Shown here: positions 5,820 to 29,807 of the stretch, in pieces | How positions within the stretch are numbered: the stretch's first letter is position 1 | Layout of the letters: every line of letters begins with the position of its first letter | From: Candidatus Saccharimonadota bacterium | Lineage (GTDB): Bacteria > Patescibacteriota > Saccharimonadia > Saccharimonadales > UBA4665 | NCBI GenBank assembly: GCA_028286345.1 | Contig: JAQBRT010000001.1 | Span: 692,567 to 756,566, forward strand | DNA: 64,000 nucleotides | Direction of reading: 5' to 3' | Notes under the pieces: generated by a model | Seen by the model: the letters and a program-made list of their open reading frames with translations, nothing else | The model's database searches: none | Told to the model about the DNA's origin: nothing | Program-made: the position numbers and the translations under genes

Positions 5820-5898
5820 GGGAACCTCCACTTATGTAACTTACTAGTTAATGACTAAAGCGTAACGTGAAGTTGCATTTTTGTAAAGTTTTGGCGCT

Positions 5899-9719: not shown

Positions 9720-11463
<1,744 letters not shown>

Positions 11464-11467
<4 letters not shown>

Positions 11468-12333
11468 TTTAGGGCCTCCGCACCACCGGTAATTTCGGCG
11501 AGTTCCTGGGTAATGCTGGCCTGGCGGGCGGTGTTGAGCTCCAGGGTGTAATCATCGATCAGATCTTTGGCGTTATCTGTGGCGTTCTTCATGGCGAGCA
11601 TACGCATCGAGTGCTCACTAGCCAAGCTTTCCAAAACGGCTTGCCACAATTGGGCCTCAAGCAAGCGGGTGGTAACTTGCTCAATGACTGTTTCAACGTC
11701 TGGTTCAAAGTTAAGGACTGGCTGATCTACGCCTGGCGAACCAACTTTGTCGCTGCTGGCTGGCAATAGCTGTACAGCCTGGGCTTCTTGAACAATGCTG
11801 GACTTAAACTTAGTGTAAAAGATCTGCACGTCATCGACGGCCTCAGTTTTATACTGGTCGATCATGGTTTTGAGCACCGGGCGGACGTCATTGGCTGTAG
11901 GGTGGTCGCCAAGGGCCGAGTAGACGGCCACTAGATCAACTTCGCTCAAACGACGTACAAACTGCGCACCCTTGTTACCAACGGCAATCACGTGACTTTG
12001 CACTTTAGCTTGTTGGTCGGCCTTGATGGCCCTAAACAATTGCTTGAGGACGTTGGCGTTGTAGGCGCCGGCCAGGCCGCTGTTACTAGTAATGATGACG
12101 TAAAGGCGGTCTTTAACAGGACGCTGGCGGAACAGTGGCTCACGGGCAACCTCTTTGACGCCGTTTAGGCGGGTCAGTAGCTCGTAGGCAATATCGCTGT
12201 AGGTGCGGCTGCGCAGGGCAGCTTCTTGGGCACGACGCATCTTACTGGCCGAAACCAGCTGCATAGCCTTGGTAATCTGGCGAGTACCTTTAATGGACTT
12301 AATGCGTTGCTTGAGAGCGATCGTGCTAGCCAT
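11464..12333 (-). CDS. atpG: ATP synthase gamma subunit
   Basis: The 289-aa rotor shaft of F1. The N-terminal helix has the family pattern LKQRIKSIKGTRQITKAMQL (7-26), and the C-terminal helix has the expected conserved run MRMLAMKNATDNAKDLI near 243-259, followed by LNTARQASITQELAEI. The start lies 8 bp after atpA, and its 3' end overlaps the unknown 111-aa gene by 4 nt. Confidence 0.97.
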
Positions 12334-12341
12334 AACTTAAT

Positions 12342-13898
12342 TTATTCCTTGCCAGCCTTTTTAGGAGCTTCAGTAGCGTAGCTGCTAGCTACTGCCTTGG
12401 CGACTTTGGAAATAGTTTCGATGGCGTCGTCAGATGGCTTATCGCCGGTGTTAATGGTTTCTGTCAGCTTGGCATGCTTGCTCTTAAGCTCGCGGTGCAA
12501 AGCTTCCTCTGCAGCCTTGATCTTTTCTAGAGGTACGTGGTCAAAAATGCCGGTTGTAGCAGCTAGCAGTGAGGCGTACATTTCCCAGATTGCGTACGGT
12601 GCGTACTGGGCTTGCTTGAGCAGCTCAGTCAGGCGCTGGCCACGCTCAATGGTTTGGCGGGTTTCTGGGTCGAGGTCGGTCGAGAACTGGCTAAAAGCGG
12701 CGAGTTCACGGAACTGTGCCAGGCTCAGCTTGAGGCCGCCACCAACGGCTTTAATAGCCTTGGTTTGGGCAGCACCACCCACACGGGAGACTGACAGACC
12801 AACAGAGATAGCTGGGCGAATACCTTGGTAGAACAAGCTGGTTTCCAGGAAGATCTGACCGTCGGTAATCGAAATTACGTTGGTTGGGATGTAGGCGCTA
12901 ATGTCACCAGCCTGGGTTTCAATGATTGGCAGGGCAGTTAGCGAACCGGCACCGAGCTTATCACTCAGTTTAGCGGCGCGCTCCAAGAGTCGGGAGTGCA
13001 GGTAGAAGACATCCCCAGGGTAGGCTTCGCGGCCTGGTGGGCGCCGTAGCAACAGTGACATCTGGCGGTAAGCGGCAGCGTGCTTGGTCAGGTCATCGTA
13101 GATGATCAGGGCGTGCTGGGCATTGTCGCGGAAGTATTCACCAATGGCAGCACCGGTGTACGGAGCCAAGTAAAGCATAGCCGCAGGGTCAGCCGGGCTG
13201 GTGGCCACGATGATGGTCTGCTCCATGACGCCTTCGCGCTTCAGGCGCTCTTGCAAGGCAGCAACCTTGGAGTATTTCTGGCCGATGGCCACGTAGACAT
13301 TGATAACGCCGGTTTTTTGGCGGTACTGGTTGACCATGGTATCGACGGCAATGGCTGTTTTACCAGTCTGGCGGTCACCAATGATCAGCTCACGCTGGCC
13401 ACGGCCAATAGGCACGATGGCGTCAATGGCAATTAAACCGGTCATCAGTGGTTCGTGAACGCTCTTACGGTCAAGTACACCTGGGGCAGGGCGTTCAACA
13501 CGGCTACTCTGCTTGGATTTAATGGCAGGGCCGCCGTCTAGCGGGTTACCGAGGGGGTCAACCACGCGGCCAATAAGCTCTGGGCCAACTGGTACTTCGA
13601 GGACTTTACCGCTCAAACGGACGGTGGCGCCGGCTTTAACTTCGGTATCTTCACCGAGGAGCACTGCACCAATTTCGTCTTCACCGAGGTTGAAAGCAAA
13701 GGCCGTAACGTTTTCGCCACTGACGCCTTCAATTTCCAGCATTTCGTTAAAGCCAGCGCTTGTCAGGCCATAAATCCAGGCCACGCCGTCACCCACACGG
13801 GTAACAACGCCAACGCTCTCAATTTCCGGGCGGTTTTTAAGCTCAGCAATAGCGGCACGAATGTCGCCCGAGAGTTCCTTGATAGATAGTTCAGCCAT
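12342..13898 (-). CDS. atpA: ATP synthase alpha subunit
   Basis: The 518-aa non-catalytic nucleotide-binding subunit of F1. The P-loop [13 protein letters not shown] is near 170-182, [13 protein letters not shown] near 367-379, and [13 protein letters not shown] near 394. All family landmarks are present and the length is normal. The C-terminal 25 residues are Lys/Ala rich. It lies between atpH (15 bp upstream) and atpG in the operon. Confidence 0.98.
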
Positions 13899-13913
13899 AG
13901 ACTTTTCCTTTCC

Positions 13914-14306
13914 TTACGCAGTCAGTTGTTTAAAAAGATTCAATTTATTTCTCACCGTCAGGTCTAGCTGCTGATTCGCGAGCTCCAAACGAATGCCACC
14001 TACGGCCGTCGCGTCTAGCTCAGGCGTAATAATAATTTTCTTGGCATTTGGGTAAAGCTCGCGCATCTGGGCTTCGATGTCATTATTTATCTGGGCTGTC
14101 AGTGAGTGGGCGCTAATCGCGATAACCTCGACAATCCCGTGATCGGCACGGTACTGCATGATGTCGCGCAGCAATGAGTCGAGCTCGCTAATGCGGTGCT
14201 CGCTAAGCAGGTAGGCAGCAATTTCTTCCGCGAATTTGGGAGTGTTAACATTCCCTAAAGAACGCTGTGCCAGGGCAGCCGCAATCACGTGACGAGGTGT
14301 TTTCAC
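13914..14306 (-). CDS. atpH: ATP synthase delta subunit (short)
   Basis: The 130-aa peripheral-stalk subunit joining F1 to subunit b. The C-terminal OSCP-type segment is recognisable (TPELDATAVGGIRLELANQQ, near 95-114), but the N-terminal helical domain is shorter than in the usual 170-180-aa proteins. It starts with GTG, the G of which is the last base of the atpF TAG stop, so the two are translationally coupled. Confidence 0.85.
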   Translation of the reverse strand: MKTPRHVIAAALAQRSLGNVNTPKFAEEIAAYLLSEHRISELDSLLRDIMQYRADHGIVEVIAISAHSLTAQINNDIEAQMRELYPNAKKIIITPELDATAVGGIRLELANQQLDLTVRNKLNLFKQLTA

Positions 14307-14836
14307 TAGGCCCTCTGCCCCTTAAGCGCGCGGTCGATCAGGGCGGCATCTTTACCAGCGTCGAGTTTTTCATCGATGATGGCTTCGGTAGCCTCAGAGA
14401 CCAAGCTGACAACTTCTTTTTCGATTTGCTTGCGGACGCGAGCAGCATCTTGCTGCGTGGCGGCGTGGGCTTCTTTTATGATGCCTTCGGCTTTTTCACG
14501 GGCTTTGTCTTCTGCGGCACGGACAGTTTCACGGGCGGCGTCATTAGCCTGGGCCAAGATGCCATCGGCCTGCTTGCGGGCCTCAACCAGTGATGCCTGA
14601 AGTTTTGCATCAAGAGCAGCACGCTCTTTTTGCATCTCTTCGCCTAGGCGGACACCACTTTCGATTGTCTCGCGACGCTCAGCCAGGACTTTTAGTATTG
14701 GCGTGAAGGCGTATTTGCGCAGCACCAAGAAAGCCAGCACGAAAGTTATGAGCTGGATAACAAAAGCCTTACCATCAACGCCTAAAGCGCCAAGGCCGGA
14801 CGAACTGTCACCAAATGTAGTTAGTAAATGCACCAT
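14306..14836 (-). CDS. atpF: ATP synthase b subunit
   Basis: The 176-aa membrane-anchored peripheral stalk. One N-terminal transmembrane helix (about 26-46, VIQLITFVLAFLVLRKYAF) is followed by a long Ala/Glu/Lys/Arg-rich coiled coil (about 50-165) that forms the right-handed stalk dimer. It lies 17 bp after atpE and overlaps the atpH start by 1 nt. Confidence 0.95.
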   Translation of the reverse strand: MVHLLTTFGDSSSGLGALGVDGKAFVIQLITFVLAFLVLRKYAFTPILKVLAERRETIESGVRLGEEMQKERAALDAKLQASLVEARKQADGILAQANDAARETVRAAEDKAREKAEGIIKEAHAATQQDAARVRKQIEKEVVSLVSEATEAIIDEKLDAGKDAALIDRALKGQRA

Positions 14837-14853
14837 GTCGTTCTAAAAATTTC

Positions 14854-15081
14854 CTATTTTACGATGAAGATTGATGCAAAGGCCAATAGACCAAAAAGTT
14901 CAACAATAGCTACGAAGATCAGTGCCTGACCCAAGAATTTTGCTGCTTCTGGGTTGCGACCAACAGCCTGTAAGTAGTTACCACCAATGAGGCCGATACC
15001 AATTGCAGGGCCGATAAAACCGCCACCGATCATAAGACCTTTACCAATAATTGCTGTGTTGACTGCGTCTGCGATTATCAT
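14854..15081 (-). CDS. atpE: ATP synthase c subunit
   Basis: A 75-aa hairpin of two transmembrane helices that forms the rotor ring. The polar loop is GRNPEAAK (41-48). The ion-binding carboxylate is Glu61 in AIVELFGLL. The residue after Glu is Leu, and the Thr/Ser plus Gln set of Na+-binding rings is absent, so proton coupling is inferred. SD AGGAGAT about 8 nt upstream. Confidence 0.96.
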   Translation of the reverse strand: MIIADAVNTAIIGKGLMIGGGFIGPAIGIGLIGGNYLQAVGRNPEAAKFLGQALIFVAIVELFGLLAFASIFIVK

Positions 15082-15134
15082 ATTTTTACCTATCTCCTTA
15101 TTAACTTCTTATTAAATTCAAACTAAGGCCACTC

Positions 15135-15983
15135 TTAACCATGCGTACTCCCGGAGGCCGTTACCCCTATTGTTTCAGGAACGCCATCTTCGGTCAAGTC
15201 AGCGTCGCTGGCGTGTTCTTCGGCGTGGTTAACGGCAATAGCCAGGTACATGGTACTCAAAATGGTAAAAATGTAGGCCTGCAAGGCAGCCACCAAGATT
15301 TCAAGCAGGGTGAATGGTAGCGCTGATAGCGGGGCTGCAACATGGCCTAAGTACGAAAAGACAGAAATAACAATTTCGCCGATGGTAATATTGAGAAAAA
15401 GACGAAGCGATAGGCTTAATACGCGGGTTAGGTCGGTAAACATCTCGAGGACACCAATCACAAAGTACAGCGGGTTTAACGGGCTGCCAATAAAGAAGTG
15501 GCGCAGGTACTTTAGGGGGCCACCGGCTTCGCGGATTGAAGAAATGTAGACCGTGAGCATGGTTACGGCACCGATTGCCAAGGTAGCGTTGAGATCACCA
15601 GTGAATGGGCGAAGTAGTGGTGATTCTCCGGAGTGGAAGCCCTCGCCAACAAACGGCAGCAGGCCGAGCCAGTTATTGAGGAGGATAAAGAAAAAGATCG
15701 TGACGAAAAATGGCACGTATTTGCGGCCGATTTTTTTATCTTCAAAGGCATTCTCGACGAGGTTAGTGATAAAGTCGACGCCGACTTCTATAAACTGCAC
15801 AATGCCGCCTTTGGGCTTGATGGTCACTTGGCGGGCTACCCAAACCATAAAGATAATGACCACGAGCGCGCAGGCCCAGCCATACAAAATTGAGTTAGTG
15901 ATTGTAAAACCACCAATATTAAAGACTTGGGCTGGTGCAACATGCACAATTGGGCCAGGGCCAACGGCAAAAAGGTTTATCAT
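15135..15983 (-). CDS. atpB: ATP synthase a subunit
   Basis: A 282-aa membrane stator subunit that carries the proton half-channels. The essential Arg is in LSLSLRLFLNITIGEIV (near residues 184-200), followed by the C-terminal helix pair. A short hydrophilic tail rich in Asp, Glu and Thr follows the last helix. It overlaps the upstream AtpI-like gene by 4 nt. Confidence 0.95.
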   Translation of the reverse strand: MINLFAVGPGPIVHVAPAQVFNIGGFTITNSILYGWACALVVIIFMVWVARQVTIKPKGGIVQFIEVGVDFITNLVENAFEDKKIGRKYVPFFVTIFFFILLNNWLGLLPFVGEGFHSGESPLLRPFTGDLNATLAIGAVTMLTVYISSIREAGGPLKYLRHFFIGSPLNPLYFVIGVLEMFTDLTRVLSLSLRLFLNITIGEIVISVFSYLGHVAAPLSALPFTLLEILVAALQAYIFTILSTMYLAIAVNHAEEHASDADLTEDGVPETIGVTASGSTHG

Positions 15984-16300
15984 GAGCGATGGCCTTTCGG
16001 TTGCTGCGGCGTAATTTTAGGGGAGTAAAGCTGCAGTTGATGCCAGACAACCAGGCCCATGCCAATCATAGCCAGCACAAAACCAACCACGGTTAATAGT
16101 GGCAATAAGTTCAGTTTTTTATCAAGTTCAAAGCCACCAATAATGGGCACAAGTACTACGATAGCCAATTGCCAACTCATAGAAAGCGTAGCCGCCACGA
16201 AAGTAGCTTGAGGATTACTCTGTTGGTCCACCGCCACCACTGGCTTTGCTTGTCCATCGAGAGGCGAGGGCGTCTTCTTCGGCGCGGTCGTCTTATTCAT
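15980..16300 (-). CDS. AtpI-like small membrane protein, first gene of the atp operon
   Basis: A 106-aa protein with two transmembrane helices (about 35-57 and 67-89) after a Lys/Pro-rich cytoplasmic start. Its position just before atpB, its size and its two-helix layout match AtpI/AtpZ-type proteins that help c-ring assembly or Mg2+ uptake; sequence similarity is low, so this is by context. TATAAT on the minus strand (16309-16314) ends 8 nt before the ATG, so the whole atp operon mRNA appears to start almost at this codon. Confidence 0.75.
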   Translation of the reverse strand: MNKTTAPKKTPSPLDGQAKPVVAVDQQSNPQATFVAATLSMSWQLAIVVLVPIIGGFELDKKLNLLPLLTVVGFVLAMIGMGLVVWHQLQLYSPKITPQQPKGHRS

Positions 16301-21433: not shown

Positions 21434-21479
21434 CGTATAGCGCTAGCATTAACAGGGATAATCAGGCATACTAGTGCCC

Positions 21480-21944
21480 ATGGCTAAGAAGAAGCCCTCA
21501 GGCCCCAAAACCATCCAAAACCGCCGCGCCCGCCACGATTACGAGCTGGGCGATTCTTTAGTGGTGGGTTTAGAACTTTCTGGAGCCGAAACTAAATCCT
21601 TACGCATGGGCCACGGCCACCTGCGCGGCGCCTACGTCACCGTCAAGCAGAACGAATTATTCCTAATTAACGCCACCATCGCCGGCACCAGCGGAATCCC
21701 GATTAACGAAACCGACCAAAGCCGCGCCCGCAAAGTCCTCGCCAAACGCCGCGAAATTGAAGCGCTAATAGAGGCCAAGCAGCAAGGCCGCACCATAGTA
21801 CCCCTAGAAATACTAACCCGCGGCCGGTTTATCAAACTGCGCATCGCCCTCGGTAAAGGTAGGAAACTCTACGACAAGCGCCAAACCCTCAAAGCCCGCG
21901 ATGACGCCCGCCGCACCGCCGCCGAAATCAAATCCGCCCGCTAA
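21480..21944 (+). CDS. smpB: SsrA-binding protein
   Basis: A 154-aa tmRNA-binding protein of trans-translation, which rescues stalled ribosomes. Landmarks are NRRARHDY (about 15-22), the GLELSGAETKSLRMGHGHLRGAYV stretch (split by G and S at about 31-54) and the basic C-terminal tail KLYDKRQTLKARDDARR that enters the mRNA channel. ATG at 21480 was preferred to the GTG at 21474 because CATACT ends 7 nt before it. No tmRNA gene was found in the window. Confidence 0.96.
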   Translation: MAKKKPSGPKTIQNRRARHDYELGDSLVVGLELSGAETKSLRMGHGHLRGAYVTVKQNELFLINATIAGTSGIPINETDQSRARKVLAKRREIEALIEAKQQGRTIVPLEILTRGRFIKLRIALGKGRKLYDKRQTLKARDDARRTAAEIKSAR

Positions 21945-21995: not shown

Positions 21996-22070
21996 TCCGG
22001 GGTAGCGCAGCGGTAGCGCAGTTGACTGTTAATCAATTGGTCGCGGGTTCGAATCCCGCCCCCGGAGCCA
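21996..22070 (+). tRNA. tRNA-Asn(GTT)
   Basis: Acceptor TCCGGGG (21996-22002) pairs with CCCCGGA (22060-22066). The anticodon loop CTGTTAA has anticodon GTT at 22028-22030. The T-arm is GCGGG, TTCGAAT, CCCGC (22043-22059). Discriminator G and an encoded CCA end the gene at 22070. It is the left border of the cassette array, and its 3' end with the following hairpin is the apparent parent of the repeats. Confidence 0.97.
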
Positions 22071-22085
22071 CGAAAATTATGTTCT

Positions 22086-22111
22086 AAAAGACTTCTTCGG
22101 AAGTCTTTTTT
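22086..22111 (+). terminator. Terminator after tRNA-Asn (prototype of the array hairpin)
   Basis: Stem AAAAGACTTC (22086-22095), loop TTCG, GAAGTCTTTT (22100-22109), then T. Exact or near copies of this hairpin recur after array genes at 22412, 22957, 23420, 25111 and 27518. Confidence 0.93.
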
Positions 22112-22137
22112 CTTGTACAAAATGCTATCCTATAGTC

Positions 22138-22344
22138 ATGACACTAAAATATCGTATTATCACCGTCAGCTTATTGCTCTCCTTGCTGCTGGGGTTTGGC
22201 GGTTACGCTATTAAAAACGCTTATGTGACAATGATAGGTATCGCATTCTTAGCATTTAGTATTTCCTGTTGGGTGTTTGCTGATAAAAAAGATCCTAATC
22301 CTGTAGGAATTATTTTAGACGGTATACTCTTTGGCATTATTTAG
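22138..22344 (+). CDS. Two-helix mini membrane protein (paralogue A)
   Basis: A 68-aa protein with two transmembrane helices (about 9-26 and 31-49) and a short hydrophobic C-terminus ending DGILFGII. It is a clear paralogue of the gene at 25962: both start M-x-LKYRI, share GGYAIKN and FADK, and end in DGI-x-xGII. Function unknown. TATCCT ends 6 nt before the ATG and there is no SD. First gene of the cassette array. Confidence 0.75.
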   Translation: MTLKYRIITVSLLLSLLLGFGGYAIKNAYVTMIGIAFLAFSISCWVFADKKDPNPVGIILDGILFGII

Positions 22345-22374
22345 TTAAAGATGATCGTCTATTGCCAAACTTGA

Positions 22375-22436
22375 TTGCGCAGCTCGTCCAGCAGTGGGAG
22401 CCAAGATGCTTAAAAGACTTCTCCGGAAGTCTTTTT
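22375..22436 (+). repeat. Array repeat copy 1
   Basis: TTGCGCAGCTCG, then CAGTGGGAGCCAAGATG, then hairpin AAAAGACTTC/TCCG/GAAGTCTTTT (22412-22435). Also acts as terminator for the preceding gene. Confidence 0.85.
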
Positions 22437-22454
22437 GTTTGGTATAGTTAGCCT

Positions 22455-22904
22455 ATGAAAAATGATAGGAAATATCTAAAGATGGCATTAGAAAATGCCA
22501 GTCGTTCAGCAGCAGAAGGTAATTTTCCTGCTGGGGGCATTGTAGTTGTAGAGGATAGGGTCATTTCCTCTGCTATCAGCTCACCATATCCTGGATTATT
22601 GCACGCTGATTCAAAAGCTGTTACTGCAGCGTTTGAATCTGATACAGACCTAGGTAAAGCAACACTATACGTAACACTAGAGTCCTGCTTGATGTGTACG
22701 GGCGTCGCCTATTGGGCAGGTATTCGACGCATTGTCTATGCTATTGCAAAGGATCAAGTTGATCCAACCTATTACGAAACCGCCCAGCCTACAGCTGCAC
22801 TAATTGATGGCTTTAATGAGCGCCTAGAACGAGTACACCTTAGCGAGCTGCAGGATGAAGCCTTAACAATCGTTAGAGCCTGGGAAGAAGCTCAGAATCT
22901 GTAG
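22455..22904 (+). CDS. Cytidine/guanine deaminase-like protein with HAD instead of HAE
   Basis: A 149-aa protein of the CDA/TadA zinc deaminase fold. The Cys pair is in TLESCLMCTG (about 76-85) and the His ligand in LLHADSKAV (about 55-63). The residue expected to be the proton-shuttling Glu (HAE) is Asp, and the usual PC of PCxxC is SC. Zinc binding should be kept but catalysis may be altered. TATAGT ends 6 nt before the ATG. It is a single-gene cassette between repeat copies 1 and 2. It could be a nucleoside or base deaminase, or a non-catalytic homologue. Confidence 0.8.
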   Translation: MKNDRKYLKMALENASRSAAEGNFPAGGIVVVEDRVISSAISSPYPGLLHADSKAVTAAFESDTDLGKATLYVTLESCLMCTGVAYWAGIRRIVYAIAKDQVDPTYYETAQPTAALIDGFNERLERVHLSELQDEALTIVRAWEEAQNL

Positions 22905-22912
22905 GTAAATAG

Positions 22913-22981
22913 TTGCGAAGCTCGCCCAGTAGGGGGAGCCACGAGAATTATGATCTAAAAGACTTCTTCGGAAGTCTTTTT
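22913..22981 (+). repeat. Array repeat copy 2
   Basis: TTGCGAAGCTCG, then GGGGGAGCCACGA and ATTATG, very close to the tRNA-Asn 3' flank (GGAGCCACGA, ATTATG), then the hairpin at 22957-22980. Best match to the tRNA-Asn copy. Confidence 0.9.
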
Positions 22982-22989
22982 GCTTATGC

Positions 22990-23018
22990 TTGCATATGCT
23001 TTTAGTAAGCCATATATT
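22990..23018 (+). promoter_or_regulatory. Promoter for the 105-aa gene
   Basis: TTGCAT (22990-22995), 17-nt spacer, TATATT (23013-23018). The -35 lies in the CTTATGCTTGC tract that follows repeat copies 2, 3 and 9. Confidence 0.7.
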
Positions 23019-23039
23019 TACACAACAAAGGAGATGATT

Positions 23040-23357
23040 ATGTCAGACCAAGTCGGGGAGTTTATGAGAAGGGTTGATTTCGGTTTGGTCAGGGCAACGA
23101 CCGAGAGTATGGCCTGCGTTAATCCAGTTGAAGGTTATGCCGTTATTGAAGGCGCAAGATACGCCATCGAGACTTATGCAAAGCAAGCCGAAGCCGGTAA
23201 GCCTACTGATTTTCATTCCATTGTTCGCGAAACAAGAGATATGCTTGATACTTATGAGCTAGATGGAGATCCCTGGAAGTGCTCGGATGAATTTAACCTT
23301 GGAGTAGCAATGGGTATTTATCTAGCACGTCGGACTGACGGTAAGCCGCGCATTTAG
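23040..23357 (+). CDS. Hypothetical cassette protein (105 aa)
   Basis: Not recognised. It is a soluble, mostly helical protein (MSDQVGEFMRRVDFGLVRAT at the start, GVAMGIYLARR near the end) with no signal peptide. AAGGAG (23028-23033) is 6 nt before the chosen ATG, so upstream in-frame starts are excluded. It has a sigma70-like promoter supplied partly by the flanking repeat. Single-gene cassette between repeats 2 and 3. Confidence 0.7.
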   Translation: MSDQVGEFMRRVDFGLVRATTESMACVNPVEGYAVIEGARYAIETYAKQAEAGKPTDFHSIVRETRDMLDTYELDGDPWKCSDEFNLGVAMGIYLARRTDGKPRI

Positions 23358-23377
23358 GCAGCGCATCTAAATCAAAG

Positions 23378-23445
23378 TTGCGAAGCTCGTCTACTGGTGG
23401 GAGCTATGATACTAATGCTAAAAGACTTCTTCGGAAGTCTTTTTT
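23378..23445 (+). repeat. Array repeat copy 3
   Basis: TTGCGAAGCTCG, TGGTGGGAGC, then hairpin AAAAGACTTC/TTCG/GAAGTCTTTT at 23420-23443. Confidence 0.9.
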
Positions 23446-23452
23446 CTTATGC

Positions 23453-23481
23453 TTGCTCTAATCTGTGAAAAAGTATATTGT
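23453..23481 (+). promoter_or_regulatory. Promoter for the phosphatase cassette
   Basis: TTGCTC (23453-23458), 17-nt spacer, TATTGT (23476-23481). The AAGGA SD at 23492 follows. Confidence 0.6.
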
Positions 23482-23503
23482 TCTATAAAATAAGGATTTT
23501 GGT

Positions 23504-23995
23504 ATGCAAGCACATGAAATTTTTCTCGTACGTCACGGAGCTTATGACTATGGTACAGGTAGCTTAAATGATAAAGGCAGGGAGCAATCTCGTGCAGCAC
23601 TTCGCGAGTTAGTAGCTTTAGGAGCTGGCAGCCTAGCCTTACTATTAAGTTCTGACGCACCTCGAGCCATTGAAACTTCACGGATTATCGCAGAAGGTAC
23701 TGGAGCAGAGGTTGTGCCGAGCAAAAGAATGCGCTTATCAGCACTGGAGCCAGATGGAGTCGAGAGCCTAGACGAATGCATTCAACAGTCGCTTAATGAG
23801 TGCGGACTGCTTGTGCCAGAATCACTCGTAGTAGTCGCGCATGAGCCCCTCTTGCAGACTGCTGCATATAAATCATGGGCAAATAAACCACATTTTGATA
23901 ATGGTGCCGTGTTAAGATACGAACCAGGTTCATGGGAGAATTTAGCGTTCCTGCCCGACTTTGCCAAAATGATTGAATCCCGCATGCATGAATAA
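23504..23995 (+). CDS. Histidine phosphatase (SixA-like)
   Basis: A 163-aa member of the phosphoglycerate-mutase-like histidine phosphatase superfamily. The catalytic RHG is at residues 10-12 in IFLVRHGAYDYG and the second catalytic His in VVVAHEPLLQTAA (about 110-122). Short length and SSDAPRAIETSRI match the SixA branch, which removes phosphate from phosphohistidine or small molecules. SD AAGGA 8 nt upstream. It shares a cassette with the next gene: no repeat lies in the 21-bp gap between them. Confidence 0.85.
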   Translation: MQAHEIFLVRHGAYDYGTGSLNDKGREQSRAALRELVALGAGSLALLLSSDAPRAIETSRIIAEGTGAEVVPSKRMRLSALEPDGVESLDECIQQSLNECGLLVPESLVVVAHEPLLQTAAYKSWANKPHFDNGAVLRYEPGSWENLAFLPDFAKMIESRMHE

Positions 23996-24016
23996 ACTAT
24001 CCTAGGAGGACATAAT

Positions 24017-24460
24017 ATGAGCGCAGAGATTACTACAGGAACCGATTCTGATATCGCAGCCGATGCAGCACACCTTGCTGCTGAAATACTTGTTGAAACT
24101 GGCTCAACTACAAGCGAGGCTTTTACCTATGGCGTGAAAGCAGCGCGCTATGGAGCAGAAGTACTCCTAGTTGCTTTGCGTGAGATGGAAGCTGTTTCTG
24201 GCGATTTAGACCAGGAAGCATTTAAAGATGCCCTGCAAAAAGTTGATGCACAAGTATTACCATTAGGTCATTTGGTCGGCGCGGCAAGACTTGGCGAAGA
24301 AATGCTACGACACTCGCCTAGCGAACTAGTTGATCTTCAAGAATCTAATGAACCTCTAGCAGACTTATTAAATAGACTGGCGGATAACCCGACGTCCGGT
24401 ATTACTGAACAGTTGCGTGCAGCAATAATTGCAGGCAGAGCCGAAACACCTAGCGAGTAA
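24017..24460 (+). CDS. Hypothetical helical protein (147 aa)
   Basis: Not recognised. All-helical, acidic and Ala/Leu/Glu-rich (DAAHLAAEILVETG, YGAEVLLVALREME) with no membrane segment. A strong SD (AGGAGG, 24004-24009) lies 7 nt before the ATG. It is the second gene of a two-gene cassette with the histidine phosphatase, so a functional link is possible. Confidence 0.7.
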   Translation: MSAEITTGTDSDIAADAAHLAAEILVETGSTTSEAFTYGVKAARYGAEVLLVALREMEAVSGDLDQEAFKDALQKVDAQVLPLGHLVGAARLGEEMLRHSPSELVDLQESNEPLADLLNRLADNPTSGITEQLRAAIIAGRAETPSE

Positions 24461-24463
24461 TTC

Positions 24464-24528
24464 CTAATCTCGTCTATTAGCAGGAGCCAAGATGGTTACA
24501 TTTAAAAGACTTGTACGGAGATCTTTTT
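24464..24528 (+). repeat. Array repeat copy 4 (degenerate)
   Basis: TAATCTCGTC, AGCAGGAGCCAAGATG, then a decayed hairpin (AAAAGA 24504-24509 pairs with TCTTTT 24522-24527). Confidence 0.75.
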
Positions 24529-24547
24529 GTTTTGTTATACTCAAGGC

Positions 24548-25063
24548 ATGAAACTTATTATGCAACCTGCTATTAGCCTTGATGGCTTTATTGCTAAGCT
24601 TGATGGCGATAGCGAAAGTTGGGTTAATCAAGCCGACGAGGCACGCTATCAGCAGGTTGTGCGTGATGCTGGTGCCGTTATTGTAGGTCGCACGACCTAT
24701 GAACAATACAAGACAGACTTTGATAGTTATGATGATGTAGTCGTCTTCGTATGCACAAACAACAAAGAATTCACGGATACCTCTAACGTAAAGCACCTGT
24801 CAGGTAACGCTATTGAAATCGTTGACGCTATAAAAAGCAACCATTCCTTTAACGAGGTAATAGTATGCGGAGGAGGCGAAGTTAACGGCATGCTGGCCGA
24901 TGCTGGCTTGGTAGATGAGATTGTTATTAGCGTGCAGTCCGCGGTACTAGGCGAGGGTATACCATTATTTGGAATCTATAAGCCGCGACTCAATCTTGAG
25001 CTCATTTCTGTTGATCAACAAATTCCAGGTGTAGTTCAAAATCACTATCTTGTTCGTAACTAG
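24548..25063 (+). CDS. RibD C-terminal/DHFR-like reductase
   Basis: A 171-aa protein of the dihydrofolate-reductase-like fold. It opens MKLIMQPAISLDGFIA, has GAVIVGRTTYEQY (about 41-53), and a nucleotide-binding EVIVCGGGEVNGMLADAGLVDE-type segment (about 101-122). Such stand-alone RibD_C proteins reduce pterin- or pyrimidine-like substrates with NADPH. ATG at 24548 was chosen because TATACT ends 6 nt before it. Single-gene cassette. Confidence 0.85.
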   Translation: MKLIMQPAISLDGFIAKLDGDSESWVNQADEARYQQVVRDAGAVIVGRTTYEQYKTDFDSYDDVVVFVCTNNKEFTDTSNVKHLSGNAIEIVDAIKSNHSFNEVIVCGGGEVNGMLADAGLVDEIVISVQSAVLGEGIPLFGIYKPRLNLELISVDQQIPGVVQNHYLVRN

Positions 25064-25068
25064 GAAAG

Positions 25069-25135
25069 TTGTGAAGCTCGTCGCTTAGGGAAGCCAAAAT
25101 GCTAATGCTTAAAAGACTTCTTCGGAGGTATTTTT
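25069..25135 (+). repeat. Array repeat copy 5
   Basis: TTGTGAAGCTCGTCG, GGGAAGCCAAAATG, then hairpin AAAAGACTTC/TTCG/GAGGTATTTT (25111-25134, two changes from the prototype). Confidence 0.85.
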
Positions 25136-25183
25136 GTTTTACCACATGTTAGCCACAATTCGTAAACAATGCTACAGTACCAA

Positions 25184-25343
25184 GATTATCGTAGAGGTGC
25201 TACCTCCGATAGTACATTGACAGAGTAGAGACGATCAGTCGTGCATACAAACCTACGTGTGGGCATATGTTTATATGTGCGACTGATAGTAAATCACCCA
25301 ACCTAAAAGTACCCGTCACCGACATCGAGAGATTGGACAAGTC
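25184..25343 (+). ncRNA. Structured 5' leader of the 138-aa gene
   Basis: TACAGT (25173-25178) predicts transcription from about 25184. Hairpin 1 pairs 25187-25198 with 25202-25211 (TATCG/CGATA and GAGGT/ACCTC). Hairpin 2 pairs 25235-25252 with 25269-25286, 17 bp with one mismatch. Between them lies GACAGAGTAGAGA, which is complementary to 25822-25834 behind the gene. It could be a cis-regulatory RNA or part of a bounded mobile unit. I see no coding ORF in it. Confidence 0.55.
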
Positions 25344-25760
25344 ATGCAGCAAGGAATTGTAATTGGATCAGTTCCAGCAATGCACTACCGTCCGTTCGCT
25401 GGTCGCTCTCCCTTAAAAGTGGACGCAGAAACTGCGCTGCTCATCCGGGAAGCGGTCCATGAACTGCTTGGCAGCCACCAGGACATCGTTGATGCCTTCG
25501 TTGGGGCTTTTCAGCTCACTGGAGTTAACCCTGACGACATCCGATTTGTGTTCTGGTCTTGGCCGGCGCTACAGACTGTTGCAAAGCCGCAACGAGCACA
25601 GCTCCAAGCTGAGCCTTTTCCGGCAATTTTCTCATTTGCCGAGAAAGATGAAATCGCACAAATTCATCCGTGCTCTGTGTTCAGAAATGCCGTCCATTAC
25701 GTTTCAAGCCGAGACAGAAAGACCTGCGATAAGGTGGACTGGGGAAATCTACCGTACTAA
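25344..25760 (+). CDS. Hypothetical cassette protein (138 aa)
   Basis: Not recognised. Helical N-terminal half (ALLIREAVHELLGSHQDIVD, about 33-52) and an aromatic-rich middle (DIRFVFWSWPALQ). Codon use looks genuinely coding, and bases differ from the AT-richer cassettes around it. SD is weak. It has a long structured leader and a strong hairpin after its stop (about 25770-25810), unlike its neighbours, so it may be a separate insertion within the array. A second ORF in another frame (25459-25983) overlaps it; I consider that one spurious. Confidence 0.6.
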   Translation: MQQGIVIGSVPAMHYRPFAGRSPLKVDAETALLIREAVHELLGSHQDIVDAFVGAFQLTGVNPDDIRFVFWSWPALQTVAKPQRAQLQAEPFPAIFSFAEKDEIAQIHPCSVFRNAVHYVSSRDRKTCDKVDWGNLPY

Positions 25761-25765
25761 AGAAG

Positions 25766-25812
25766 GGCCGGAAGCCTCGTTTGATCTTCGGATTGATCGA
25801 GGCTGCCGCGCC
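25766..25812 (+). terminator. Long hairpin after the 138-aa gene
   Basis: GAAGCCTCG pairs with CGAGGCTGCC-side sequence around a TTCG tetraloop (GCCTCG ... GATC-TTCG-GAT ... CGAGGC). There is no T run, so it may be an RNA-stabilising or processing element rather than a classical terminator. Confidence 0.5.
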
Positions 25813-25862
25813 CCACCTTCATCTCTACTCTGTCCTCAATCCTCGCATAGTTGCCTGAAAAT

Positions 25863-25926
25863 TTGCGAAGCTCGCCCAGTAGCCGGAGCCAAACATAATC
25901 ACTTTGCGCCGACAAAGTGTTTTTGC
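25863..25926 (+). repeat. Array repeat copy 6 (different hairpin)
   Basis: TTGCGAAGCTCGCCCAGTAG then GGAGCCAAACATAATC, but the terminator is a different stem: CACTTTG (25900-25906) with CAAAGTG (25913-25919), followed by TTTTT. Confidence 0.85.
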
Positions 25927-25961
25927 TTTATTGAGATCCTTGTTTGCGGTATTGTTAGTTT

Positions 25962-26168
25962 ATGTCGCTCAAATATCGCATAGTTATCTCTGGCTTATCG
26001 CTTTCAGTTCTTTTAGGGCTGGGAGGTTATGCAATTAAGAATCCTTTTGTTATGATCGCTGGCATTGTCTTTTTAGCTTTCAGTTTGGGGTGTTTATTTT
26101 TTGCGGACAAGCAGGAAAAGAGAGCCTATGCCATTATCATTGATGGAATATTCTGGGGCATTATTTAA
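25962..26168 (+). CDS. Two-helix mini membrane protein (paralogue B)
   Basis: 68 aa, the same length and layout as the protein at 22138: start M-x-LKYRI, GGYAIKN, a second helix, FADK, and an end in DGI-x-xGII. Two transmembrane helices, no known domain. TATTGT (25950-25955) ends 6 nt before the ATG. Each paralogue sits directly behind a repeat copy, so this looks like a duplicated and diverged cassette. Topology suggests a very short periplasmic or external turn; function unknown. Confidence 0.75.
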   Translation: MSLKYRIVISGLSLSVLLGLGGYAIKNPFVMIAGIVFLAFSLGCLFFADKQEKRAYAIIIDGIFWGII

Positions 26169-26202
26169 CATGCGCAATGTGCTCGACTCTACGGTATAGT
26201 CC

Positions 26203-26257
26203 CGAAGCTCGTCCACTAGAGGAGTGTGGCAGAAAAGACTGCACAGTCACCTTTTTA
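26203..26257 (+). repeat. Array repeat copy 7 (degenerate)
   Basis: CGAAGCTCGTCCACTAG then GGAGTGTG; weak hairpin GACT (26237-26240)/AGTC (26245-26248) with a T run. Confidence 0.7.
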
Positions 26258-26303
26258 TTGCTACTATACTGCTACGATTAAAGGTAATCCTGGAGGAACT
26301 ATT

Positions 26304-26762
26304 ATGAAGCAAATTACACCTAATCTATGGTTCGATGGTAAGGCTCAGGAGGCAGTCGATTTTTACCTCTCAGTGTTCCCAGACAGTAAGATAATCTCCA
26401 CCGTTTACTACCCAAACAGCGCAGAACAAGGCTTGGCTGACTTCCAGCTCGATATGGCAGGCAAGGTGCTGTCAATAGAATTTGAGCTCAGTGGCAACCG
26501 CTTTGTGGCTATAAATGCTGGCCCGGAATTTAAGTTCAACGAATCTGTATCGTTTTCCATCCCTTGTGAAGACCAAGCAGAAATCGATTACTACTGGGAG
26601 AAACTGTCAAAAGTGCCAGAGTCCGAGCAGTGCGGTTGGTGCAAAGACCAATACGGCCTCAGCTGGCAGATTGTACCCAAAAATATGGATGAACTAATGC
26701 AGCACCCAAACGCTTTTGCTAACATGATGCAAATGCACAAAATTGTTATTGCCGATTTTTAA
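26304..26762 (+). CDS. PhnB-like VOC/glyoxalase-fold protein
   Basis: A 152-aa protein of the 3-demethylubiquinone-9 methyltransferase-like (PhnB/YjdN) branch of the VOC superfamily. It opens ITPNLWFDGKAQEAVDFYLS, and has FVAINAGPEFKFNESVSF (about 68-85) and CGWCKDQYGLSWQIVP near the end. Such proteins bind a metal and a small substrate; the precise reaction is usually unknown. GGAGG lies 9 nt before the ATG. TATACT at about 26264-26269 is the probable -10. Confidence 0.88.
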   Translation: MKQITPNLWFDGKAQEAVDFYLSVFPDSKIISTVYYPNSAEQGLADFQLDMAGKVLSIEFELSGNRFVAINAGPEFKFNESVSFSIPCEDQAEIDYYWEKLSKVPESEQCGWCKDQYGLSWQIVPKNMDELMQHPNAFANMMQMHKIVIADF

Positions 26763-26766
26763 CACA

Positions 26767-26803
26767 TTGCAGCTCGTAGTTCGAATCCAGCAGGGGAGAG
26801 TCA
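26767..26803 (+). repeat. Array repeat copy 8 with an intact tRNA T-loop
   Basis: TTGCAGCTCG, then TAGTTCGAATCCAGCAGGGG and AGAGTCA. GTTCGAATC is a canonical T-loop, but the T-stem no longer pairs. No terminator hairpin follows. Confidence 0.75.
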
Positions 26804-26849
26804 AGCATAAGCAATTTCTAAAGTAACCCCGCCGTGATATTTTGTCTTC

Positions 26850-27455
26850 ATGTCTAAACCAGAAATATTACTGCTCGGTGGCGCTCCTGGCAGCGGGAAG
26901 TCCACCATGGCCCAACTCGTGGTAGAAAAAAATACACCTCAGGGTGTACGCCACTTATCTATTGGTGACCTAAAACGTGACATTGTAGCCGGTAAAGTTC
27001 CGTCGGCCTACGCAGAGATGCTGCAACAAAGAGAGCACCCTGATCGCAAAACAGGTGCAGCGCCCAGCGAAGCTATGACAGGCATAATGGAAGAATTTAT
27101 TCTTGCTAGCCCGGAAAGCCTGACGATTGTAGACGGCTTCCCACGCTACATGGATCGTGTAGCACCATTTAAGGCATCCATGGAACATATTGGCGCACGA
27201 GTACTCGCACTATGCGTCGTAACGGTCGATGAAGCAGTTCTGATTAGCCGCCTTACCCAGCGGGAGGAACGATCTGGCCAAAAAATAAAAGATCCTTTAG
27301 AACGCTTAGCTGACCATAGGGATAATATTGTACCAACCTTAGAGCTTCTCGCTGAAGACTATCCATATTACGAACTGGATGGTTCGCTTCCTTTAGACGA
27401 TAATGCGACCCGTTTAATAGAAATCTACACCCAAACAGCTCAGCAAAGTATTTAA
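26850..27455 (+). CDS. Adenylate-kinase-like P-loop NTPase
   Basis: A 201-aa nucleoside-monophosphate-kinase-fold protein. Walker A GGAPGSGKSTMAQL (10-23), IVDGFPRYMDRV (about 90-101, the FPR substrate motif of adenylate kinases) and the ISRLTQREERSGQ LID-type segment (about 133-145) are present. NMP kinase activity is plausible, but it is probably not the housekeeping Adk. TATTTT ends 6 nt before the ATG. Single-gene cassette. Confidence 0.85.
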   Translation: MSKPEILLLGGAPGSGKSTMAQLVVEKNTPQGVRHLSIGDLKRDIVAGKVPSAYAEMLQQREHPDRKTGAAPSEAMTGIMEEFILASPESLTIVDGFPRYMDRVAPFKASMEHIGARVLALCVVTVDEAVLISRLTQREERSGQKIKDPLERLADHRDNIVPTLELLAEDYPYYELDGSLPLDDNATRLIEIYTQTAQQSI

Positions 27456-27492
27456 AAGCCACGTTTTGTTGACTGGCAAACTGAACTGAACG

Positions 27493-27545
27493 TTGCAGAG
27501 CCAAGGCGTTTATGCCTAAAAGACTTCTTTGGAAGTCTTTTTTCT
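27493..27545 (+). repeat. Array repeat copy 9 (short)
   Basis: TTGCAGAGCCAAGG joins the two conserved boxes directly, then hairpin AAAAGACTTC/TTTG/GAAGTCTTTT at 27518-27541, then CTTATGCTTGC. Confidence 0.85.
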
Positions 27546-27550
27546 TATGC

Positions 27551-27579
27551 TTGCAAATGATATCTTCGAAACGTAGAGT
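27551..27579 (+). promoter_or_regulatory. Promoter for the 115-aa gene
   Basis: TTGCAA (27551-27556), 17-nt spacer, TAGAGT (27574-27579). Confidence 0.55.
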
Positions 27580-27605
27580 AAAAGCAATAATGGAGAACTT
27601 TACTT

Positions 27606-27953
27606 ATGGCGACTGAATGGGAAACTGAAGCTCATGCAGAACTTGAGTCATCGGCACGAGAAGAAAAAGTAAATGCATTTCTGAACAGCGGGTACGCCAG
27701 CCAAGTAGCAGACCTGGCGCTAGCAGCTTACTGGGATCATATACAAGCTAGCATTAGGGCCGACAAAATTGAGCGCGACATACGCATAGACTCCTACGGT
27801 GGTAGATTAAGTAAAGCCGACATGCGTTCTATGCGTACCCAGCAAACCCAAGCGGCAACTGAAGCCAGCGTTCAGTTTCGTACAGCCGCTGACTATGCGG
27901 CGATCGCGGGGGCGGTTGCTTTAGCTCAAACTCAACGAGGCGTTGAAGCGTAG
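27606..27953 (+). CDS. Hypothetical cassette protein (115 aa)
   Basis: Not recognised. Soluble, mostly helical, rich in Ala, Gln and charged residues (SAREEKVNAFLNSGYASQVA). It has no Cys or transmembrane segment. GGAGAA lies about 9 nt before the ATG, and the promoter is supplied partly by the tract behind repeat 9. Single-gene cassette between repeats 9 and 10. Confidence 0.65.
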   Translation: MATEWETEAHAELESSAREEKVNAFLNSGYASQVADLALAAYWDHIQASIRADKIERDIRIDSYGGRLSKADMRSMRTQQTQAATEASVQFRTAADYAAIAGAVALAQTQRGVEA

Positions 27954-27974
27954 AATCATATTCTTCGTTTTCAA

Positions 27975-28005
27975 AGCTCAGCAATCCGTCCAATAGCGGT
28001 AGCCA
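27975..28005 (+). repeat. Array repeat copy 10 (degenerate, no hairpin)
   Basis: AGCTCAGCAATCCGTCC then AATAGCGGTAGCCA; runs straight into the promoter hexamer TATAGT of the next gene. Confidence 0.6.
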
Positions 28006-28023
28006 ATCATATATAGTGTAGGC

Positions 28024-28536
28024 GTGGCCCTATTAAAGTTCTCAGCGGTTATAAAAATAATTGGCATTAATCCGTATGTCACTGTCAGCAGAAGCCAGGC
28101 CGAACGCCTAAAGGTTGGCTGGCGTAAGCCGATGCCGGTGTTAGTTAAGGTCAATGGCTGGCCAAAAGAACCCTGGCACATTAATATGATGCCCGCCGGC
28201 AATGGCGAGTTTTACTTATACCTGCACGGAGACGTGCGCAAGGCATCTTCTACCCAAGTTGGCGACGAAGTAATTATCGAGCTAGATTTTGATGAAAGCT
28301 ACAAGAATGGTCCGCAACATCCTATGCCGGAGCCGTTTGCCGCGGCGCTTGAACGGGTTCCGATTGCTCAAACTAATTGGGACAAGTTGCCGCCGAGCCG
28401 ACAAAAAGAAGTACTTCGCTACTTCTCTGGCTTAAAATCGGCAGAGGCCAGGGAAAGAAATATGAAAAAGGCCTTGGCCGTCCTTGCTGGAAAGACAGAG
28501 CGATTTATGGGTCGTACCTGGCATAACGGTTCATAA
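28024..28536 (+). CDS. DUF1905/YdeI-like protein
   Basis: A 170-aa protein. The N-terminal half is a DUF1905-type beta-barrel (KIIGINPYVTVS, VKVNGWPKEPWHINMMPAG, FYLYLHGDVRKAS, VGDEVIIELDFDE). The C-terminal part is a YdeI/OmpD-associated helical segment (WDKLPPSRQKEVLRYFSGLK, then EARERNMKKALAVLAG). Molecular function is unknown. The GTG start is supported by TATAGT (28012-28017) ending 6 nt before it. Base composition is closer to the host genes than to the early cassettes. Confidence 0.85.
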   Translation: MALLKFSAVIKIIGINPYVTVSRSQAERLKVGWRKPMPVLVKVNGWPKEPWHINMMPAGNGEFYLYLHGDVRKASSTQVGDEVIIELDFDESYKNGPQHPMPEPFAAALERVPIAQTNWDKLPPSRQKEVLRYFSGLKSAEARERNMKKALAVLAGKTERFMGRTWHNGS

Positions 28537-28615
28537 CCAACACACCAAGCCAAGCCGCTTATCGTTGCAAATACCCAGGAATAGTCAGATAATATCCTGA
28601 ATCTAAGGAGTAGCT

Positions 28616-29224
28616 ATGGATTTACATGGACTTGGTGAGAAAATGAGCGACAAATTTCATACCGAAGAAGCACTTAGGCGCGCTGACGAGAAGAAAGCAG
28701 CCGAGAAAGCACAAAAGGATGCCGAAGCCCTAGCTAAGACTACGGCACAAATCCAGCGAACCGAACGCCTAGTAGAAAGCTTTGTTGAAGTTGTAGCACC
28801 GTCACTCAAACCCAGTAGAGAAGAATTTCCAGCTCTTTATACGACCTTTTTGACAGAAATGTTGCCTCTTGGGGCCTTAGGCGAAAGCGCCGAAAGCTGG
28901 GCATACACCCATGCATTCGCAACAGTAGGCATAACCAAAGAGTTGGTAAAAACTAGTGTTGAATTCAGGCCTGTTACTCATGGCTGGTTACGCAAGCTTG
29001 TAGCCATGGAACCTGTTCCAACTCAAGTCTTGGGCAAAACAGTTAGTGTTGGTATTACAGTCTTTGCCGGCAACGAGCTGGGTACTAATATCCGTGAAAT
29101 CGAAGCCGCTGGCTACACACACGGCAACGCCAATTTAGAAAACACTGCCGACGAAGCCAGCGTTGAGCACTACGAAGAGTTCTTAGAGCTTATCGAAGCA
29201 TCACTAGCCGCAAAAGTTGAGTAA
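28616..29224 (+). CDS. Hypothetical protein (202 aa)
   Basis: Not recognised. An N-terminal charged coiled-coil-like stretch of Ala, Lys, Glu and Asp (about 17-50) is followed by an alpha/beta domain (VKTSVEFRPVTHGWLRKLVA, VSVGITVFAGNELGTN). SD AAGGAG is 7 nt before the ATG. The gap before it holds only a very weak repeat-like trace (GTTGCAAATACCCAGGAATA), and the gap after it holds none. Confidence 0.65.
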   Translation: MDLHGLGEKMSDKFHTEEALRRADEKKAAEKAQKDAEALAKTTAQIQRTERLVESFVEVVAPSLKPSREEFPALYTTFLTEMLPLGALGESAESWAYTHAFATVGITKELVKTSVEFRPVTHGWLRKLVAMEPVPTQVLGKTVSVGITVFAGNELGTNIREIEAAGYTHGNANLENTADEASVEHYEEFLELIEASLAAKVE

Positions 29225-29274
29225 CCGGCTTCCTAGGAAACCCTATTGTCTTGTTGTTTTGTTATGATGTGGGC

Positions 29275-29769
29275 ATGGCTAAACGACTAAAAGTAATGCC
29301 CAAAAAGCCACTGCAGATTTCTTGCTGCTTGGTATTTGATGAAGACAGCCGGATTCTATTATTGCAACGTCATGCCGATGACTTGGGCGGAGGTTTGTGG
29401 GCAACGCCAGGAGGCAAGCAAGAGCCAGGCGAAGATCCGGCGACTACGGCCATTCGGGAGGTCGAAGAAGAAACCGGCTTAAAACTAAAAAATATTCAAT
29501 ATCTTGGCAAGCATTCCTTAATGATGCCTCACGGCGTAGCTCACATGAGAACCTATCGCGCATATGTAAGCCAGGATGAAAAGATCATTATTAATCATAA
29601 CGAGCACCAAGGCCACCAGTGGTTAAGTGTAGCCGACCTACTTACGACTGAAAAAATAATCTGGGGGCTTCCTACTACGCTTTCAGACTTCGGGCTCATA
29701 CAGCTTCTACGCATTGACCCAACTCTGGCCGATGGTAGCCGTGCTGTTCTGCTTGAACTTGCAAACTAG
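29275..29769 (+). CDS. NUDIX hydrolase
   Basis: A 164-aa NUDIX-fold pyrophosphohydrolase. The Nudix box runs from GGKQEPGEDPATT to REVEEETGL (about 44-66) with all Glu metal ligands. Probably cleaves a nucleoside diphosphate derivative; the substrate is not predictable. The ATG at 29275 was chosen because TATGAT ends 6 nt before it. Followed 38 bp later by another NUDIX gene that is only distantly similar. Confidence 0.9.
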   Translation: MAKRLKVMPKKPLQISCCLVFDEDSRILLLQRHADDLGGGLWATPGGKQEPGEDPATTAIREVEEETGLKLKNIQYLGKHSLMMPHGVAHMRTYRAYVSQDEKIIINHNEHQGHQWLSVADLLTTEKIIWGLPTTLSDFGLIQLLRIDPTLADGSRAVLLELAN

Positions 29770-29793
29770 CTTCTTCGTAAGTCTTCTCTTTTT
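29767..29793 (+). repeat. Array repeat copy 11 (hairpin remnant)
   Basis: GCTTCTTCGTAAGTCTTCT followed by CTTTTTGC, a decayed copy of the GACTTC-TTCG-GAAGTC terminator. Right-most trace of the array. Confidence 0.55.
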
Positions 29794-29807
29794 GCTATGA
29801 TAACCCT

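Follow-up and report, generated by a model that had tools for sequence, protein, structure and literature searches.

The window analysed here is a stretch of 64,000 nucleotides of contig JAQBRT010000001.1 from a Candidatus Saccharimonadota bacterium of the order Saccharimonadales (source genome of ~0.9 Mb, 98% complete, in three contigs). It carries, downstream of a tRNA-Asn gene, an array of small genes separated by a short site that ends like the tRNA itself, and this array is presented below as part of a candidate gene-capture system anchored at tRNA 3′ ends.

The array downstream of tRNA-Asn

The left flank of the locus is smpB (21474..21944, on the plus strand like all features listed below), which has this place in the family and, by protein search, lies beside tRNA-Asn in many relatives. 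Next come the anchor, tRNA-Asn(GTT) (21996..22070), an attB/attI-like position with the 3′ end GGAGCCA, and a terminator hairpin (22086..22109) near-identical to the one after site 2. All 15 non-overlapping open reading frames (ORFs) of the array are on the plus strand, as in an initial annotation made from the sequence alone, which had described about 15 such genes in a repeat array anchored on tRNA-Asn. Its account of the repeat as two boxes followed by a hairpin, in the same order as in the tRNA-Asn 3′ end with its terminator, was likewise correct. An nhmmer model of the repeat, made from five window copies, gives strong matches (E 1e-23 to 1e-9) at 22907, 23372, 22368, 25062, 25856, 22050, 24462 and 27497, that at 22050 being the tRNA-Asn 3′ end itself, and weak matches at 26196, 27986 and 29761.

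Scoring the window with a site matrix that derives mostly from other genomes gives five full-length hits of more than 20 bits, which lie between 22378 and 25866 and share the plus strand; neither the window's minus strand nor Markov sequences yield any hit above this score. Site 1 (CGCAGCTCGTCCAGCAGTGGGAGCCA, 22378..22403, 27.7 bits), site 2 (CGAAGCTCGCCCAGTAGGGGGAGCCA, 22916..22941, 35.6 bits), site 3 (23381..23406, 24.3 bits) and site 4 (24464..24489, 23.0 bits) are each followed by a terminator, as is site 5 (25072..25096, nhmmer E 6e-20), which has a one-base deletion. Site 6 (25866..25891, 32.4 bits) has a different hairpin after it, and site 7 (26203..26219) combines a perfect left half (26.8 with the left-half matrix) with an altered right end. 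Further on lie a remnant made of GAGCCA and terminator only (27498..27541, nhmmer E 1e-9) and a weak remnant site (27980..28005, 11.7 bits), degeneracy rising toward the distal end. The earlier count of up to 11 copies holds if remnants are included; those at 26767, 27975 and 29767 are so degenerate that they do not qualify as sites, and the one at 27493 is the GAGCCA–terminator remnant.

The window version of the site reads CGAAGCTCGYCCAGTAGnGGGAGCCA. The hairpin (AAAAGACTTCYTCGGAAGTCTTTT) is the non-conserved part of the repeat, being found elsewhere in the genome too, and other hairpins follow the same site in relatives. The nhmmer model, the site matrix and the restriction to one strand confirm the array, which is real and not a string of ordinary terminators. 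When two copies of the site were folded alone, one was better than shuffles and one was not; a known RNA motif was sought in Rfam and rejected, the search returning only the tRNA and another match far below its gathering score. Separately, and in contrast to the other copies, the sequence at 26767-26802 (GTTCGAATCCAGCAGGGGAGAGTCA) looks like part of a tRNA, namely its T-arm and 3′ end.

The cargo is diverse. A gene for 68 amino acids (22138..22344) has a paralogue of the same length further down the array (25962..26168, 59% identity). Other cassettes encode members of the cytidine/deoxycytidylate deaminase family (22455..22904, PF00383, E 5e-17), of the histidine phosphatase family (23504..23995, PF00300, E 1e-8), with a second gene of unassigned function (24017..24460) in the same cassette and no site between the two, and a RibD_C/DHFR-like protein (24548..25063, PF01872, E 7e-19); two further cassette genes (23040..23357 and 25344..25760) have no assigned function. 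They are followed by a 3-dmu-9_3-mt/glyoxalase-like gene (26304..26762) and, between degenerate remnants, by adenylate-kinase-like, unassigned, OmdA/YdeI-like, unassigned and Nudix genes (26850..29769), which are probably the older part of the array. Nudix hydrolases are among the products of the window ORFs.

In the relatives fetched, the cargo of the window recurs downstream of tRNA-Asn as the glyoxalase-like gene (69-74% identity), as an adenylate-kinase-like homologue on the opposite strand (28% identity) and as a Nudix homologue with 37% identity to the gene just beyond the window array; the other array genes were not found there. Alone among the array genes, the glyoxalase-like gene has in several relatives a close homologue near tRNA-Asn, and because of this it may be a resident gene rather than a cassette. 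Cargo differs between genomes, and almost none is common to the same tRNA; the same genes in the same order, which the initial annotation had named as the outcome that would speak against its reading, were not the pattern seen in relatives.

The site across the order and its match to the anchor tRNA

The conserved site can be written GTTgCGAAGTACGTCCACTAGGGG-NN-GCCA. With two mismatches allowed, a pattern search places it in 92 of the 393 genomes of the order, while a control pattern with one spacer base too many occurs in 18/393 and reversed controls in few. The former control is a fair measure of chance, and some single matches among the 92 will be due to chance, the tandem clusters not. Arrays fetched with their anchor lie in tandem 3′ of tRNA-Asn, tRNA-Gln(CTG), tRNA-Gln(TTG) and tRNA-Trp, co-oriented with the tRNA, and are made of units of ~0.3-1.5 kb, up to 10 or more per array. 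In two relatives (G048 and G033) whose region 3′ of tRNA-Asn was read by eye, other genes are accompanied by the same motif and then by other hairpins or none. Neither the exact site pattern nor the alignment of the recombinase described below has a match in viral contigs, so that no episomal form came to light.

Sites at the various anchors have a common left half, and their last six bases vary with the anchor, being GAGCCA at tRNA-Asn, CAGCCA or TAGCCA at tRNA-Gln and CTGCCA at tRNA-Trp. When sites are recognised from their left half alone, 70 of 81 have, just ahead of GCCA, the same dinucleotide NN as the anchor, as compared with a mean of 26.6 and a maximum of 53 when anchors are permuted over the 32 arrays (5000 runs); the loci were partly picked by a pattern that includes the right end, a bias that permutation over arrays should largely absorb. 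The match extends to a tRNA-Gln(TTG) that ends in CAGCCA and not in TAGCCA (L196), since its sites also end in CAGCCA. The repeat copies the tRNA only in its last ~6 nt, the left box being the element's own half-site, and the initial proposal of a duplicated attachment site stands, on the evidence of relatives, as regards the attachment site and fails as regards the extent of duplication.

Cassettes themselves show recurrent features. After 33 of 105 sites the cassette starts with AGCATAAGC or its reverse (background 1.9%), a hairpin coming next; the T-run of the hairpin is often followed by a -10-like box, and 49/105 sites fit a loosened form of this pattern, a count made without a calibrated control. 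An identical 30-nt cassette head follows tRNA-Asn in two genomes of different families (G042 and G204). A gene for 94 amino acids is shared between anchors, the copies in the Gln arrays of G024 and G065 being 72-76% identical to a gene that G040 carries in its Asn array, and each of these genes is followed by another small one.

Several observations accompany this survey. A second array, also small, follows tRNA-Gln(CTG) in the window's genome (L170, G000:C2:485000-496000), with two minus-strand sites at ~5553 and 5946 (ends CAGCCA/CAGTCA). Two site-bearing cassettes of the same genome have no tRNA and lie between genes for a Crp-like protein and a primase (L171, G000:C2:96000-107000, ~5180-6050), perhaps a secondary-site insertion by analogy with integrons. 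In G014 another repeat family ending in GAGCCA (..CCGGCACGCT/C) follows tRNA-Asn (L224) and is perhaps a second site type. In a Deltaproteobacteria record (L239), a distant large serine recombinase at tRNA-His is accompanied by a motif resembling the site, in two copies (GGTTCTAAAATCGTCTATGT...ACCCCA), and the half-site, judged from this sequence, may be older than Saccharibacteria. The tRNA-Asn gene is split at the anticodon by inserts of ~200-600 bp resembling group I introns in 11 genomes (G034, G020, G028, G010, G047, G041, G075, G078, G092, G052 and G073). Some contigs end exactly at the tRNA-Asn 3′ end (G002:C40, G028:C26, G034:C3, G045:C18 and G031:C5), which looks like assembly branching and could reflect strain variation.

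A large serine recombinase beside the same tRNAs

At four loci (L173, L177, L179 and L085), the gene directly after the tRNA is antisense to it and encodes a large serine recombinase (LSR) whose open frame runs into the tRNA; the four proteins are 44-85% identical to each other, and the first site lies ~4-6 kb on. The same arrangement, with the first site 4-10 kb on, is found at most of the loci L194 to L204. The protein P0001 (G024) has the Resolvase, Recombinase and Zn-ribbon domains, with PF00239 and PF13408 above cut-off and PF07508 just below. The neighbour of the LSR in L173 is a replication protein of the REP_ORF2-G2P (HUH) family, with homologues beside other LSRs (the genes adjoin in L173, L177, L179, L194 and L196), for which reason the element looks like, and may be, an integrative rolling-circle plasmid, or possibly a phage.

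An LSR search of the 393 genomes gives 36 with E < 1e-70. When its coordinates are compared with those of a strict-pattern site search, a site lies 5′ of the LSR, on the opposite strand and within 13 kb, for 10 of the 18 LSRs with E < 1e-110 and for none of 21 weaker matches; with the site matrix, nearly all top LSRs having enough contig show a site. Three of the weaker LSRs (~35% identity to the query) have a variant site, CGAAATGTGTCCGCCAAnGGGAGCCA, in common. The sequence flanking the tRNA is the LSR element's own in 12/17 LSR-first tRNAs (background 1.8%) and of cassette type in 5/17 cassette-first tRNAs, a result to be expected if the flank comes with the latest insert. G374 has a second LSR element directly adjoining a site within the array, and in L198 LSR elements stand in tandem and end in the same site. 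Named organisms carrying the associated LSR are mostly Candidatus Saccharibacteria.

This context suggests that the associated enzyme is an LSR and not the tyrosine recombinase suggested in the initial annotation, since the only one of that type in the window's genome is a Xer protein. The genome also has two distant LSRs, ~21-30% identical to the clade over partial length, at tRNA-Glu and tRNA-Leu, where no arrays were found. Both belong to elements in which the LSR is antisense over the tRNA 3′ end (L048, ~9728-16110, and L049, from ~9185 on), the first of which seems to end at TTCGAACGCAAGTAGTTCACCAA and a hairpin.

Mechanism, alternatives and place among known systems

What the sequences show is that the site exists and recurs across the order, that its end agrees with the anchor tRNA, that cargo varies and that sites and LSR elements are co-located. 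On these grounds it is probable that the locus arose as non-autonomous cassettes, mostly of one gene each, were inserted one after another by an LSR at tRNA 3′ ends, and serial integration of single-gene mini-elements, already proposed in the initial annotation, is strongly supported by the relatives. Reading from these patterns, we infer that single cassettes are excised and integrated as circles by an LSR. A cassette would begin with NN-GCCA and a terminator hairpin, often with a promoter-like -10 right behind it, and go on to a gene and then the half-site GTTgCGAAGTACGTCnACTAGGGG. Its circular form would recombine with the tRNA 3′ end via the dinucleotide NN (tRNA bases 71-72), the tRNA would be restored and gain a new terminator, and the site would move to the far side of the insert, so that the next cassette could enter. 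The enzyme would most likely be an LSR of the clade found beside such tRNAs. The window's genome being without it, the array there would be an orphan that is either fixed or open to mobilisation in trans alone, and it is probably idle unless an LSR element arrives.

Several points weigh against serial LSR-mediated insertion. Movement of cassettes is deduced from pattern and association, and only 55/81 sites keep intact 6-nt ends, for which reason many may be inactive. The LSR search found no member of the site-associated clade in the window's genome. Cassettes and LSR elements have the left half-site in common while the sequence right of GCCA mostly differs, and an identity block of 6-7 nt would fit the overlap of a tyrosine recombinase too. 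In addition, sequence after the tRNA recurs near-unchanged after an inner site of the same array in two loci (L095, ~357/~1360; L093, ~357/~3342), which simple serial insertion fails to explain.

The array could instead consist of autonomous LSR–Rep elements accreted at the tRNA and decayed, each to one gene and an end site, without any dedicated cassette. That LSR elements, which terminate in the same site, are found in tandem (L198), and that window sites are more degenerate distally, would fit this view, which is nevertheless unlikely given that cassettes are compact (terminator, gene, site), that their recurrent heads (AGCATAAGC and hairpin) are unlike the tRNA-side flank of the LSR element, and that one head is identical in two families; moreover, LSR or Rep pseudogenes were not recognised between sites in a search that was not exhaustive. 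Movement by a tyrosine recombinase, which could be Xer or a mobile integrase, with LSR elements merely using the same tRNA hot spot, is less likely still: the length of the identity block and the Xer gene of the window's genome speak for it, whereas LSR elements terminate in the same site, divergent LSRs come with a site variant of their own, the Xer protein is below the cut-offs of integron integrase models, and no tyrosine recombinase was noticed beside the anchor tRNA in the arrays inspected, though not systematically.

Two other explanations carry hardly any weight. One takes the repeats for ordinary terminators between the genes of a gene-dense region, multiplied by chance or by gene conversion, and draws on the occurrence of the hairpin elsewhere in the genome; it was rejected, for the conserved site upstream of the hairpin is common to genera with different hairpins, varies with the 3′ end of the anchor tRNA and stands between genes that differ from genome to genome, the variable cargo contradicting it as well. 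A true integron array with unusual attC sites, suggested by layout, single genes, one orientation and the existence of orphan arrays, is just as improbable in view of the tRNA anchor, of the terminator and promoter-like -10 that many cassettes have of their own, and of the missing integrase and attC architecture. Indeed, no integron integrase (IntI) was found in the window's genome, its one tyrosine recombinase being XerC/XerD-like and far below the TIGR02249 cut-off, and the consensus of 105 sites, inspected without attC-specific software, has no RYYYAAC/GTTRRRY boxes, in line with the initial annotation. As IntI and attC were not found, the system is not an integron.

It nevertheless resembles integrons and clusters of attC sites lacking integron-integrases (CALINs) in its cassette array, where small diverse genes in tandem and in one orientation have a site after each cassette, in the regeneration of the anchor site and in the existence of arrays with or without a recombinase, the window array being an orphan, CALIN-like one. 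It differs in that the associated enzyme is a serine and not a tyrosine recombinase, that the anchor is a tRNA 3′ end, that the site is a half-site plus tRNA end and not a folded attC, and that cassettes have their own terminator and often a promoter-like -10. Staphylococcal cassette chromosomes (SCC/SCCmec, with CcrA/CcrB) share LSR insertion at the restored 3′ end of a conserved gene, tandem composites and non-autonomous members, and the system has what defines LSR elements, namely LSR domains, a regenerated target 3′ end and a crossover sequence common to the sites. However, SCC units are tens of kb long and sit at one protein gene, in contrast to the short units found here at several tRNAs and never, among these anchors, at rlmH; the LSR, with E 1e-12 and 48 bits against a cut-off of 700 for the CcrA model, is outside the CcrA/B group. 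Xer-driven pdif modules also have small genes between short recombination sites; theirs are dif-like, for XerC/XerD, whereas the present sites are not dif-like and pdif modules have no tRNA anchor. Islands and satellites anchored at tRNAs (integrative and mobilizable elements, tycheposons) likewise integrate and accrete at tRNA 3′ ends. They are usually multi-gene elements with tyrosine integrases, unlike the mainly single-gene units beside an LSR described here. The system is integron-like in logic and SCC-like in enzyme, belonging to neither, and may deserve a class of its own if the enzymology holds.

Somewhat less firmly than for the insertion mechanism itself, the balance favours a gene-capture system evolved independently of integrons, in which the tRNA would act as attI, the tRNA-ended half-site as attC and a tRNA-specific LSR on integrative Rep elements as the integrase, shuffling single-gene cassettes in Saccharibacteria. 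No published description of such a system was found in titles and abstracts, in a paper collection with no preprints and few subscription journals. The classic example of modular gene capture is the integron, which depends on a tyrosine recombinase; another system of the same logic, with a serine recombinase and a tRNA anchor, would mean, if true, that cassette arrays evolved more than once. The site motif would let many cassettes be catalogued, and the rule that tRNA bases 71-72 set the target becomes directly testable and useful for LSR-based genome engineering. Within this candidate-phylum lineage, whose genomes are reduced, the sites occur in 61 of the 156 genera sampled, and for Saccharibacteria, which are episymbionts with small genomes, such a system would, if real, be a route of gene gain.

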